Positions 4,145 through 11,278 of a stretch of 20,594 bases of DNA are shown in pieces (positions within the stretch are counted from its first letter, which is position 1; each line of letters begins with the position of its first letter). Origin of the DNA: a virus; the IMG/VR virus record IMGVR_UViG_3300045120_000573, positions 1-20,594 of that record; one strand, given 5' to 3'. Below the pieces are notes generated by a model. That model ran no database searches. It had not been told where the DNA came from and saw nothing but the letters and a program-made list of their open reading frames with translations. The position numbers and the translations under genes were made by a program.

Positions 4145-4768
4145 GTGCGCCGCCTCGCCGCCGTAGCCGCGGCGCTGTGTGCCGTCGCCGTCACCCTCTG
4201 TGCGGCGACGGCCGGCGCCGGATACACCCACCCGACGACCACCACGACCGAGGCGTCGACCACGACGACGGTGTGCGTCGACTGCACCCCCGGCACGCAG
4301 GGCGCGCCCACCACCACCACGACGACCGTCGCGCCCACCACGACGGTCGCGTCGACCACGACGACCGTCGCGCCCACCACCACCACGACGACCGTCGCCC
4401 CCACGACGACCACCACCACGACCGTCGCGTCGACCACGACGACGACGTGCCCGGACTGCACCCCCGGCACGCAGGGCGCGCCCACCACCACCACCACCAC
4501 CACCACGACGACGGAGGCGCCGCCATCCACCACCACCACGACGACGACGACGACACCGCCGCCGACCTCGACTGGCACGACGACGTCTACGACCACCTCG
4601 ACGACCACCTCGACGACGACCTCGACCTCGACGACGAGCACGACGATCGAGACGCCGCCGACACCGACGATCTGCGTCGACGTGCTGCCACCGGCCAACG
4701 CCGACGGCTACTTCCCTGAACCGGTGCTCTGCGGCCGGCCGGCGCCGCAACTGCCCGCCACCAGATAG
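4145..4768 (+). CDS. Secreted Thr-rich low-complexity protein (207 aa)
   Basis: The GTG start is directly after the previous TAG. Residues 1-26 form a signal peptide (RR, hydrophobic core, ATAGAG). Residues 31-170 are mostly Thr with Val/Ala/Pro/Ser, broken by two copies of a Cys-x2-Cys module (CVDCTPGTQGAP at 44 and CPDCTPGTQGAP at 102). A short non-repetitive C-terminus has two more cysteines (about 177 and 196). All three forward frames are open through the ACC/ACG repeats, but only this one has a signal peptide and correct spacing. Such mucin-like Thr tracts are common in actinobacterial surface proteins. Beside the holins it may act at the envelope (lysis accessory, wall spacer or superinfection barrier). 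Its function is unknown. Confidence 0.65.
   Translation: MRRLAAVAAALCAVAVTLCAATAGAGYTHPTTTTTEASTTTTVCVDCTPGTQGAPTTTTTTVAPTTTVASTTTTVAPTTTTTTVAPTTTTTTTVASTTTTTCPDCTPGTQGAPTTTTTTTTTTEAPPSTTTTTTTTTPPPTSTGTTTSTTTSTTTSTTTSTSTTSTTIETPPTPTICVDVLPPANADGYFPEPVLCGRPAPQLPATR
4298..4660. repeat. ACC/ACG-type low-complexity triplet repeats encoding poly-Thr
   Basis: Long runs of CCACCACCACGACGACG-type triplets, interleaved with a repeated block coding for CTPGTQGAP, fill the centre of the Thr-rich gene. This keeps several frames open on both strands and produces large spurious ORFs. Such repeats are prone to slippage, so the length of this gene could vary between related phages or be misassembled. Confidence 0.85.
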
Positions 4769-7236: not shown

Positions 7237-7406
7237 GCGGCGACTGGCGACGCCCGGACGACACCGGCCCCATCGTCGCCCCGGCCCACGGCCGCCAGGT
7301 CGCATGGCGCAACTACGTCCGCGAGCTACGCCTACAAGGCCGCGAAGCCGACGACGAATGGCTCGACGCCCTCGTCACCCGGTACGCCGACGAGGTGGAG
7401 TCGTGA
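7233..7406 (+). CDS. Small soluble protein of the early operon (57 aa)
   Basis: The ATG overlaps the initiator stop (ATGA). The sequence begins MSGDWRRPDDTGPIVAPAHG and continues with a predicted helical region (VAWRNYVRELRLQGREADDEWLDALVTRYADEVE). There are no membrane segments, cysteines or recognisable motifs. The helical, charged composition resembles many small phage early proteins. Support comes from tight coupling on both sides; the function is unknown. Confidence 0.6.
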   Translation: MSGDWRRPDDTGPIVAPAHGRQVAWRNYVRELRLQGREADDEWLDALVTRYADEVES

Positions 7407-7588
7407 CCGTGGCTTACGCCATCGCTGGCGGCCTGATCATTGGCGCCCTGCTGTACGCCGTCGGCCTGTTCCTCGACGAACTGGCAGAGCATCATCGCCT
7501 GCGTCGCATGGCCGACGGCATCCGCCGCCGCCAGCTGGAGGACGAACACCGACGCAACGGCGTCCACGACCGGAGGCCGCCGACATGA
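7403..7588 (+). CDS. Small single-span membrane protein (61 aa)
   Basis: The GTG overlaps the upstream stop (GTGA). Residues 3-26 are a transmembrane helix (VAYAIAGGLIIGALLYAVGLF), followed by a basic, amphipathic cytoplasmic tail rich in Arg, His and Glu (ELAEHHRLRRMADGIRRRQL). A membrane anchor with a basic tail in an early operon could tether a complex to the membrane or alter host envelope functions. No family is recognised. Confidence 0.6.
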   Translation: MTVAYAIAGGLIIGALLYAVGLFLDELAEHHRLRRMADGIRRRQLEDEHRRNGVHDRRPPT

Positions 7589-7680: not shown

Positions 7681-7901
7681 CCGTCAACCTGTCCGCGGCG
7701 CAGGCCCGTCGACTGGGGATCGACACGCCGGCCACGGCGGCCCGGCCACGCGCCACCCGTAGGGCGTTGCCGCGTGGCCGGGCCGTGTCGGTCTGTCACG
7801 TGTGCGGCGTGCGGTTCGACACCGACGCCGCCGAGACCCGTCACGTCGCCGCCACCCTCCACGCCCGCTACGACACCGACGGTCTACAGTCCCAGGTATG
7901 A
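7677..7901 (+). CDS. Small C2H2-type zinc-finger protein (74 aa)
   Basis: The product is 74 residues, beginning MTVNLSAAQARRLGID, with a basic middle (ARPRATRRALPRGRA). The C-terminal half holds one classical C2H2-like finger: CHVCGVRF, then HVAATLHARY, giving Cys-x2-Cys-x12-His-x5-His with a Phe in the core. Single zinc fingers are uncommon in bacterial genes but are known in Ros-type regulators and some phage nucleic-acid-binding proteins. As an early gene it may regulate transcription or bind phage DNA. It overlaps neighbours at both ends. Confidence 0.65.
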   Translation: MTVNLSAAQARRLGIDTPATAARPRATRRALPRGRAVSVCHVCGVRFDTDAAETRHVAATLHARYDTDGLQSQV

Positions 7902-8078: not shown

Positions 8079-8232
8079 GTGGGACCCGGACAGCCCCCCC
8101 AGTGATCGGCTCTCCCCCTCCCCGTTCGTCGGGTTCGCCGTCACCTCGTCCACGATCCCGTCAGATCGTCCACATTCGCCGTAGACGGCCCTAGACCGGT
8201 CCGGGGTACTGCGGGGACCAAACTGGGGTCCT
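8079..8232. other. Non-coding region upstream of terminase with short repeats (packaging-site candidate)
   Basis: No gene is seen here. The stretch holds TCGTCCAC at 8146-8153 and 8166-8173 (20-base spacing), TTCGCCGT at 8134-8141 and 8175-8182, and the palindrome GACCGGTC (8194-8201). Phage packaging sites (cos or pac) usually lie next to terminase genes, and nested direct repeats would suit a terminase-binding site. No promoter is obvious. The assignment is an inference. Confidence 0.35.
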
Positions 8233-10017
8233 GTGGCGAATCCTGCGTATGCGACGCCGGCCTACCGCAAGGGCCGGGCCCGGCTGCTCGCCGACCAGCC
8301 GATGTGCGTGCATTGCCGGTGCCGTGTCGCCACCGAAGCGGACCACCAGCCGCCGCTCAGACTGCACGCCCACCTCGACGGGTCCGACTGCTGCCAGCTG
8401 GTGGCGTCGTGCTCGGTGTGTGCACGCCGGCAGGGTGCGATACTGGCGGGCAGGGTGACGGCGGCCCGCCTCCCTGTACCCGCTAAGTCAGTCGGTGGCC
8501 CGCCGTCACCGACCGTCGAACCGGTCGGCTATCCGCCAGCCGATCCGGTGTGGGACGTCGCGTGGCTGACAGGGCTGCGCGACGTCCCCGGCGACGCCAC
8601 CTGGCCCCGCCTGATGACACCGCCGCACCCGCAGGCCGTCGGCTCCTACGGCGACGACCTGGCCGCCTACGCGCTCGAGCGCACCGGTAAACCGCTGCGC
8701 TGGTGGCAACGCCTGTACGCCGCCCGCGCCCTCGAACACGACCAGGCCGGCATGCTCGTGTGGGACGCGTGTGATCTGACCGTCGCCCGCCAGGTCGGCA
8801 AGTCCTATCTGATGCGTGAGGCGTGCCTGTGGCGGATGCATCAGGGCGGCCGCTTCGACGAACCCCAGACGGTGGTGCACACCGGCAAGGACCTGCCGGT
8901 CTGTGTCGAGATACAGCGTCCGGCGCGCCGCTGGGCGCGCAGTGAACGCTTCGCCGACGTGTACAAGGTGCGTGACGCCAACGGCCAGGAACAGATCGAG
9001 TACCTGGCCGACGGGTCCCGCTGGCTGGTCAAGGCGAAGGAGTCCGTCTACGGCCTGTCCGCGTCGATGGCCGTCGTCGACGAGGCGTGGGCGGTGCCGG
9101 CGACGATGATCGAAGAGGGCCTCGTCCCGACGATGGTCGAACTCGCCGCCGCCCAGTTGTGGCTCGTGTCGACCGCCCACCGCAAGGCGACCGCCCTGAT
9201 GGTCGCCCGCCGCAACGCCGCCCTCGCCGACCTCGACGGCTACGACGCCGACCTGTGGGTCGAATGGTCCGCCGCGCCGGGCGTGGACCTCGACGACGAG
9301 GCCGGGTGGCGGCAGGCGTCGCCGCACTGGACGGACCGCCGCCGGCGTCTCATCGCCCAACGCCTCACCGCCGCCCGCTCCGGCGAGTCGGACGACCCTG
9401 ACGAGCCGGACCCGTTCGAGGCGTTCGCCGCCCAATGGTTGAACCGGTGGCCGACCGTACGCCGCAAACCGGGCCACGGCGAACCGCTCCTCGACGCCGG
9501 TGTGTGGGACGACTGCGCCGGCGCCCTCGACGCCTACGACGGGCCGGGCATCGTCGCCCTCGAGGAGAACCGCGGGACCGGGGCGGCGGCGGCGTTCGTC
9601 GCGTCGGACGGCGCCGGCCGCTTCGAGGTCGACGGCCGGGCCTGCGCCTCCTGGTCCGACGCCATCGACCTGGTACGCGGGTTCGTCGACGCCCGCCCCG
9701 GCGCCCGCCTCATCGTCGGCGCCCGCCTCAACAACCAGCTGCCGGCCGACCTGCCCGGCCGGATGGGTGCGACCCGCGCCGGCACCACCGAGACCGGGCG
9801 CGGCCTGGTCCTGTTGCGTGCCCTCGCCGCCGAACGCCGCGTGTTCCACGACGACACGGTGATGCTCGACGACCAGATCGCCCGCGCCCGCGTCCACAAC
9901 CTGGCCGGCGGCGGACTGGGCCTGGTCAACAACAACGCCCGCACCGACCTGCTGCGCGCCTGCCTGTGGGCGCTCGACGCAGCCCAGGTCACCCCGCCCT
10001 CGCCGGCCATCCGATGA
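8233..10017 (+). CDS. terL: Large terminase with N-terminal HNH-like zinc domain (594 aa)
   Basis: DNA-packaging motor and nuclease. Residues 10-70 are an HNH/treble-clef-like domain: Cys25-x2-Cys28, Asp37-His38 in ATEADHQPPL, Cys60-x2-Cys63 in ASCSVCARRQGA. The usual Asn and last His of HNH are not obvious. The ATPase follows: Walker A ARQVGKS (185-191), Walker B MAVVDEAW (279-286), coupling motif LVSTA (311-315). The C-terminal region from about 435 matches the RNase H-fold nuclease by position, with IVALEEN at the first acidic site and RTDLLRA near the end. Phage HNH proteins are often separate genes beside terminase; here the domain is in the same reading frame. No small terminase is recognisable nearby. 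The GTG start is chosen because it keeps the Cys domain intact; its ribosome binding site is weak. Confidence 0.9.
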   Translation: MANPAYATPAYRKGRARLLADQPMCVHCRCRVATEADHQPPLRLHAHLDGSDCCQLVASCSVCARRQGAILAGRVTAARLPVPAKSVGGPPSPTVEPVGYPPADPVWDVAWLTGLRDVPGDATWPRLMTPPHPQAVGSYGDDLAAYALERTGKPLRWWQRLYAARALEHDQAGMLVWDACDLTVARQVGKSYLMREACLWRMHQGGRFDEPQTVVHTGKDLPVCVEIQRPARRWARSERFADVYKVRDANGQEQIEYLADGSRWLVKAKESVYGLSASMAVVDEAWAVPATMIEEGLVPTMVELAAAQLWLVSTAHRKATALMVARRNAALADLDGYDADLWVEWSAAPGVDLDDEAGWRQASPHWTDRRRRLIAQRLTAARSGESDDPDEPDPFEAFAAQWLNRWPTVRRKPGHGEPLLDAGVWDDCAGALDAYDGPGIVALEENRGTGAAAAFVASDGAGRFEVDGRACASWSDAIDLVRGFVDARPGARLIVGARLNNQLPADLPGRMGATRAGTTETGRGLVLLRALAAERRVFHDDTVMLDDQIARARVHNLAGGGLGLVNNNARTDLLRACLWALDAAQVTPPSPAIR

Positions 10018-10060: not shown

Positions 10061-11278
10061 GTGGCCGAGACGCGCGCCCTGATCCCGCGTGACACGTCCG
10101 CCCCAGCACCGATCCCAACCGACGTCGACCCGCCGACACCGCCGGCGGTAGACGTCACCGACGTCGACACCGTCCCACCGGGCGCCGGCGCGTTCGCCCC
10201 GCCCCGCCCGCAGCCGTGGGCCGGCTGGCCGCTGGAATGGGCGACACCGAACTGGGGCGGCCACGCCGAGGAACTCGTCGACATCGCCTGGGCCTGCCTC
10301 GATCTGAACTCGTCGGTGGCGGCGTCGATGCCGCCGTACCTGGTCGACGCCGCCCCATCCCTCGACGCCGGCTGGCTGATCAACCCTGACCCGGACCGTT
10401 ACGAGTCGTGGGAAGAGTTCTTCCGGCAGGTGTGGTGGGACTATCAGGCGGCCGGCGAGGCGATCATCGTCGCCACCGCCCGCTACGTCACCGGCTGGCC
10501 CAGCCGGTTCCACGTTGTGCCGCCGTGGCTCGTCGACGTCGAACTCGACGACGCCGGCGTCCGCCAGTACCGCATCGGGGACCGCGACGTGCCCCGCGCC
10601 GACATCTGCCACATCCGCTACCAGTCGTCGACGCAGGACGCCCGCGGCCGCAGCGCCCTGGCGGTCGGGCGGGGCCGGATGGTCGCCGCACGCCTATTGG
10701 GCGCCTACCTGACGAACCTGATGGCCGCCGGCGGCGCCCCGACCACGGTGCTGGTGCATCCGCAGGAGGTCACCGCCGAACAGGCCGCCGCCCTGCAGGC
10801 CCAGTGGATCGAGGCCCGCATGAACTCGATGGGCCTGCCCGCCGTCCTGTCAGGCGGCCTCGACTTCCGCTCGACCGGCCTGTCCCCGAAGGACCTCGCC
10901 CTCACCGAGTTGGCCGGCATGACCGAGGCCCGCATCGCCGTCCTGCTCCGTGTCCCGCCGTACCTGGTCGGCCTGCCCCAATCATCCGATTCGCTCGTGT
11001 ACAACACGGCCGGCCTCACCCTCGACTACCACTGGCGTGCCCATCTGCGGCCGCTCGTCCGCCCGATCGTCGCCGCCCTCTCCAAATTCGCCCTGCCCGC
11101 CGGGACGATGCTCGAAGTGAACCGCGACGCCTACGTCCAGCCCGGCCCGTACGAACGTGCCCAAACCTGGCAGATCCTCACGTCGATCGGTGTCCTCACC
11201 GCCGAACAGGTCGCCGAAATCGAACGGTACGTCTACCGCGGCCAGGCGGCGACACTCACGGCAGGAGAAACGCCATGA
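10061..11278 (+). CDS. Portal protein (HK97-like family)
   Basis: The product is 405 residues, within the usual size for the compact HK97-type portals. It has a Pro-rich N-terminus (about 1-50), then the portal core: VDIAWACLDLNSSVAASMPPYLV, the tunnel-like region GDRDVPRADICHIRYQSSTQDA, and the family-typical MTEARIAVLLRVPPYLVGLP. Portals form the dodecameric ring through which DNA is pumped, and this gene follows terminase and precedes the protease as expected. Translation starts at GTG after the repeat-containing gap. The stop overlaps the protease start (ATGA). Confidence 0.92.
   Translation: MAETRALIPRDTSAPAPIPTDVDPPTPPAVDVTDVDTVPPGAGAFAPPRPQPWAGWPLEWATPNWGGHAEELVDIAWACLDLNSSVAASMPPYLVDAAPSLDAGWLINPDPDRYESWEEFFRQVWWDYQAAGEAIIVATARYVTGWPSRFHVVPPWLVDVELDDAGVRQYRIGDRDVPRADICHIRYQSSTQDARGRSALAVGRGRMVAARLLGAYLTNLMAAGGAPTTVLVHPQEVTAEQAAALQAQWIEARMNSMGLPAVLSGGLDFRSTGLSPKDLALTELAGMTEARIAVLLRVPPYLVGLPQSSDSLVYNTAGLTLDYHWRAHLRPLVRPIVAALSKFALPAGTMLEVNRDAYVQPGPYERAQTWQILTSIGVLTAEQVAEIERYVYRGQAATLTAGETP

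Follow-up and report, generated by a model that had tools for sequence, protein, structure and literature searches.

Introduction

HNH proteins with a part in DNA packaging, and HNH genes that adjoin terminase genes, are already known, and such proteins are a known yet poorly understood component of cos packaging. In phage HK97, gp74 is a separate HNH protein that stimulates cos cleavage by the terminase (PMC9410871, PMC11331095), and it is the packaging HNH endonuclease of Kala et al. 2014, as cited in PMC9410871. One possibility raised for this phage is that the large terminase (TerL) and gp74 each cut one strand (PMC11331095). The nuclease centre of HK97 TerL consists of D302, D388 and D471 (PMC9410871). 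In the HK97 genome, the small terminase (TerS) and TerL genes lie at the left end and the HNH gene near the right end. Here, we analysed a viral genome in which an HNH-like domain and a TerL are encoded in a single open reading frame.

Genome setting of the terminase gene

The window, that is, the whole stretch of DNA analysed, comprises positions 1 to 20,594 (20,594 bases) of IMGVR_UViG_3300045120_000573. Since its first 127 bases are identical to its last 127, it represents a circularised genome of ~20.5 kb, and its source is a small virus of bacteria. The terminase gene (8233-10017) encodes 594 amino acids from a GTG start and is open throughout; the portal gene follows it, and protease, capsid and tail genes, as read from the window ORFs, lie downstream of the portal. 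Two scans of GTDB contigs for a host yielded no relative, and a plasmid search returned no match. The coordinates of the relevant features are collected in Table 1.

Several other genes deserve mention. A Thr-rich protein with TTTT repeats and a signal-like start is encoded at 4145-4768, between an amidase-like gene and the integrase region. A 62-aa membrane-type protein at 7400-7588 is 81-84% conserved in two relatives (L011 and L016), a degree of constancy that is unusual within the variable right end. Directly left of the predicted cos site, an ORF of ~72 aa (7681-7901) encodes a C2H2-like finger, in which CHVC precedes two spaced His, and is without a PHROG match; the stretch is also conserved in L011, as seen in a comparison whose query was in a shifted frame.

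Table 1 Features of the terminase locus in the window.
Feature	Coordinates	Strand	Basis
Predicted cos site, GTGATCGGCTCT	8102..8113		~120-130 bp 5' of the start codon; contig ends of relatives
HNH/treble-clef zinc domain, terminase residues 1-73	8233..8451	+	PHROG matches; AlphaFold model; GVE2 HNH 5h0m as top match
Pro/Ala-rich linker, ~residues 74-106	8452..8550	+	Low model confidence; length varies among relatives
TerL packaging ATPase, Walker A 185-191, Walker B 281-284	8551..9465	+	phrog_9; fold matches to HK97 TerL and P74-26
TerL RNase H-like nuclease domain	9466..10014	+	Sf6, G20c and SPP1 nuclease domains, Z 12-15; HK97 profile alignment
Portal protein	10061..11278	+	PF04860, E=6.6e-40; directly 3' of the terminase

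An HNH-fold domain is predicted at the N-terminus

An earlier note, made from the bare sequence, had claimed that an HNH-like zinc domain is fused in frame to TerL, and the motifs, PHROG matches and predicted fold bear this out. Two CxxC pairs, C25-x2-C28 (window 8305-8316) and C60-x2-C63 (8410-8421), together with D37-H38 (8341-8346), stand in the same frame as Walker A (ARQVGKS) and Walker B (VVDE). A profile search of residues 1-96 against PHROG found HNH families above chance (phrog_589, E=2.6e-6; phrog_2323, 2.2e-4; phrog_144, 1.5e-3). Pfam assigned no family to the window terminase protein and gave at most sub-threshold Endonuclease_7 matches in its class A relatives, defined below (best E 0.0019), and searching the PDB by sequence with profiles of the N-domain and of the whole protein returned chance matches only.

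Structure prediction, covering both residues 1-105 and the whole protein, returned an HNH/treble-clef fold and an HK97-type TerL with a linker between them. The AlphaFold model of residues 1-105, built on an alignment of 56 related domains, had a mean pLDDT of 86 and placed a helix at 9-19, strands at 35-39 and 55-59 and a second helix at 61-71. This order of helix, zinc knuckle, strand, strand and helix agrees with a beta-beta-alpha-metal fold, so the predicted model has the beta-beta-alpha/treble-clef core of the HNH superfamily. The closest solved structure was the GVE2 HNH endonuclease 5h0m (Foldseek probability 1.00, E 0.012; Z 7.2 over 70 residues, rmsd 3.3), followed by Cas5-HNH, and the top three matches were all HNH domains.

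At the residue level, the motif is incomplete. Both CxxC zinc knuckles are present; across the 56 aligned domains C25 and C60 do not vary and C63 hardly does, and the first catalytic-type His with its preceding Asp (D37-H38) is likewise invariant. The middle Asn of the HNH motif is absent, here and throughout class A: the position five before C60 is variable in aligned class A members and Gln in the window. The final metal ligand, a His or Asn after the last Cys, is Ala64. Beyond the usual zinc ligands, H45xH47 and C53C54 are invariant across the 56 domains, fused and split; neither these pairs nor the gaps in the motif appeared in the earlier note. The pairs sit within the HNH loop, where they may form a second metal site or a fold element.

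The window domain may bind zinc and DNA. Metal-dependent cleavage by it is putative at best given the incomplete motif, and judging from its residues the domain is probably non-catalytic or weakened in this phage. One alternative is that it is an active HNH nuclease in which other metal ligands, for example H45, H47 or C53, C54, replace the lost Asn. The invariance of DH, HxH and CC fits such a scheme, but we found no HNH structure with ligands of this kind and the two pairs could just as well bind a second zinc or have a structural role, and we consider this explanation improbable.

The remainder of the protein is an HK97-type large terminase

The whole-protein model had a pLDDT of 91, and the only stretch below 50 was residues 76-90, within the linker (mean 59 for residues 71-80 and 42 for 81-90). 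Outside the HNH domain, the protein matched the phrog_9 terminase large subunit family (E=4e-27). Its core aligned with HK97 TerL 6z6d at Z 24.6 over 420 residues and its ATPase with that of P74-26 at Z 19.8, so that both parts of an HK97-type large terminase, the Walker A/B ATPase and the RNase H-like nuclease, are found in the window protein.

E445, G496 and D572 align with the HK97 nuclease triad, which would leave the three-acid centre incomplete, although the alignment is weak: it is a single-sequence profile alignment of probability 9.5 that agrees with the predicted strands and helix, and we regard the equivalence as likely rather than certain. The second acidic position is Gly or Ala in nearly all family members. 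At the third, the window's clade has Asp and most other lineages have His. Because the sequences of the cultured relatives Maja and Catfish read Gln at the second position, the loss of this acid alone does not prove a dead nuclease, and we dropped it as such a proof.

The fusion is conserved across an uncultured family

We collected the family with an alignment of the TerL part alone, a query unable to favour the presence of an HNH module, and kept 80 of the 363 relatives found. Close relatives (83-96% identical) carry the same open HNH-TerL fusion. Leaving out relatives cut by a contig end, an N-terminal HNH module was present in 68 of 68 relatives with a complete N-terminus (61 of 61, plus seven with a variant TerL motif), and the domain persisted in all complete relatives down to ~40% identity. 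The modules fell into two classes: 49 belonged to class A, with the signature CxxC, DH, HxH, CC and CxxC, and 19 to class B, which reads CxxC, WDLGH, GPEH and CN and matches the phrog_1808 HNH at ~1e-15. Class B is scattered on the TerL tree, where well supported branches force at least three changes; since every complete relative retains a module, HNH has been exchanged but never lost in this sample.

The HNH domain is, as measured by dN/dS, under purifying selection (0.14-0.54 for the HNH part within the window's clade, in a comparison that left out L044, a misregistered row). We weighed whether a homing endonuclease, inserted at the start of the terminase, could have left it behind as a remnant that is now simply tolerated. 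Homing-type HNH genes concentrate in the region adjoining terminases (PMC10448857), yet a domain that occurs in all complete relatives, is held by selection and is swapped for another HNH subtype without being lost makes this origin very improbable.

A search with the HNH part recovered 50 fused loci, 25 stand-alone proteins and three that were cut, so relatives exist in both the fused and the split form, a comparison that the earlier note had put forward. The stand-alone proteins measure 57-95 residues from the start of the match, and at 12 of these 25 loci a TerL with an ARQNGK motif lies downstream, mostly within ~1 kb. At one split locus (L037), the gene order is HNH, TerS (phrog_6299, E=2.8e-20) and TerL. 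The separate HNH genes at related loci would fit an artefact, of assembly or of sequencing, in which two genes were joined. However, the same open fusion recurs in 50 contigs from many metagenomes, and the window ORF has no stop or frameshift between the domains. The conservation of the fusion among relatives thus speaks against a frameshift artefact, to which we assign next to no probability; we rejected it as refuted by the relatives.

Two observations concern the stand-alone and related proteins. Many stand-alone HNHs (L166, L168, L170, L176, L186 and others) share a C-terminal P-S-R-x-W, an ending not seen after the fused HNH domain, which may be a contact motif for TerL or TerS. In addition, residues 17-82 of L111, and one A5 member, show weak similarity to the C-terminal portion of phrog_4581, a terminase small subunit family of 395 columns, hinting at an HNH-TerS fusion elsewhere.

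None of the cultured phage records covers 80% of a fused protein, and all fused members found here are therefore uncultured. Within the sequences sampled, the HNH-TerL fusion is standard across a large uncultured family and is not unique to the window genome.

A probable cos site adjoins the HNH-terminase gene

Contig ends cluster at the start of the terminase gene. In 47 of 71 family members, the contig terminates 300-700 nt 5' of the WPRLM codon, a distance that places its end at the start of the gene or slightly upstream of it. A run of C follows most of these ends at 9-17 or 24-29 nt; the downstream contig ends (n = 35) are spread across 3,950 nt. The contigs of the close relatives L002 and L043 start at the GT after GCCCCCCA, and that of L013 starts one base later. 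In L095, the contig starts with GTGACCGTCCCT and ends with CAGCCCCCCAGTGACCGTCCCT, an end overlap of 12 nt, and the homologous place in the window is GTGATCGGCTCT. Judged from these assembly ends, cohesive ends at 8102-8113 are probable. The HNH-terminase gene therefore adjoins the predicted cos, as do the genes of gp74-like packaging HNH proteins.

Among the window ORFs, none between the predicted cos and the portal is a TerS gene, and the portal directly after the terminase leaves no room for one there. ORFs upstream of the predicted cos gave no TerS match in PHROG, and these ORFs differ between relatives. This arrangement bears on whether the HNH-fold domain is purely a DNA-recognition zinc module that replaces TerS, binding cos and passing DNA to the motor without cutting. 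The absence of a TerS gene between cos and portal and the lack of a conserved upstream candidate are in keeping with that proposal, as is the loss of the catalytic HNH Asn in the clade of the window. L037, a related split locus, does have TerS beside its HNH. On the other hand, TerS sequences diverge strongly, and such a gene could lie unrecognised among the ORFs elsewhere in the genome. Sister lineages, moreover, keep DH and the Asn, some of them in the second HNH subtype with its own Asn; Asn-bearing HNHs of both subtypes suggest that nuclease chemistry is selected there. A role in recognition alone hence seems unlikely to us.

Residue patterns in the two nuclease centres

Asn occupies the final HNH ligand position in 33 of 60 class A relatives and in all 11 class B relatives scored. 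Its distribution follows the third acidic position of TerL: in lineages with His at that position (43 members scored) the final HNH ligand is mostly Asn, and in members with Asp there (23 scored) it is not. Five members depart from this pattern, namely L046 (Asn with Asp), L058, L070 and L101 (no Asn with His) and L095 (Gly with Ser). On the TerL tree, the group with Asp and no Asn forms one clade (support 100/100). We thus rejected repeated compensation between the HNH Asn and the TerL Asp: with one main switch on the tree, the events are not independent and constitute weak evidence for a functional trade-off. The pattern is only suggestive of a division of labour between the two domains.

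Proposed mechanism

Taken together, we consider it reasonably likely that the window encodes a single-chain, cos-type terminase whose HNH-fold module assists in the recognition or cutting of cos. In this protein, a flexible linker would tether a zinc-bound HNH-fold domain to the packaging motor, which is of HK97 type. The module may bind DNA at or beside cos and help the terminase to make the staggered cut that gives cohesive ends, as the separate gp74 does in HK97. The fusion would supply HNH in fixed proportion to the motor. This scheme draws on the predicted fold, the fusion, its conservation, the clustering of contig ends and the residue patterns, from which we infer zinc binding, DNA binding, cutting and the division of labour.

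Who cuts may differ between lineages. Most family members retain DH and Asn in the HNH and have lost two of the three acids of TerL, so that the HNH probably does some or all of the cutting in those lineages. In the window's clade, where the Asn is lost and the third TerL Asp is kept, the HNH is more likely a module that binds and positions cos DNA, and the TerL nuclease would cut. The proposal of the earlier note that fusion yields a single-chain packaging machine thus stands in part: the fusion, its conservation and the probable cos adjoining the gene favour it, but DNA cutting by the HNH domain of the window phage was not borne out, as its motif lacks both the Asn and the final His or Asn.

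A broader evolutionary reading, which we offer tentatively and hold to be doubtful, is that the family has a TerS-free packaging enzyme with two nuclease centres per chain, and that cos cutting passed between HNH and RNase H during evolution. Most lineages would then have let the HNH cut while the TerL nuclease decayed; in the window's clade the reverse would have happened, the HNH being kept for cos recognition.

A natural HNH-TerL fusion fixes both partnership and stoichiometry, and the family spans members in which the HNH looks intact and the TerL nuclease centre has decayed, and members nearer the opposite. With both residue types in one family, purified proteins and point mutants could assign each cut to one centre. 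The fused terminase is, in addition, a candidate for a minimal motor that has no separate small subunit.

Comparison with known systems

What sets the window family apart from the known systems compared here is the family-wide fusion of HNH onto the large terminase. We found no description of an HNH-terminase fusion in the literature searched, and an earlier mention is possible. The top viral-model match to the window HNH domain (E 2.9e-4, 35% identity) was the model of UniProt A0A6J5T5X6, a 578-aa terminase large subunit of an uncultured Caudovirales phage; the entry is annotated as terminase only, and the match makes it probably another deposited fused form.

The cultured Arthrobacter phages Maja and HunterDalle have distantly related TerLs (27-29% identity) and an HNH gene at the end of the linear genome. 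In contrast to the window, no gene separates this HNH from the genome end to its right, and TerL is preceded by an HTH or hypothetical gene at the TerS position. The GVE2 HNH is a stand-alone protein, whereas the window HNH is fused. HK97 gp2 (6z6d) shares the ATPase and RNase H-like nuclease fold but has no N-terminal HNH, and its D302/D388/D471 triad corresponds at the aligned positions to E445/G496/D572.

The likeness to HK97 gp74 is that of an HNH family member tied to cos packaging and to an HK97-type TerL, with a Y..R..L..PxCxxC..AT..DH stretch in common with the window domain (profile comparison, E=5.8e-5). However, gp74 is encoded by a separate gene of 119 aa on the opposite side of cos and has an ENWQPLC..HH motif, whereas the window HNH is fused to TerL in one open frame and is without the Asn and the final His.
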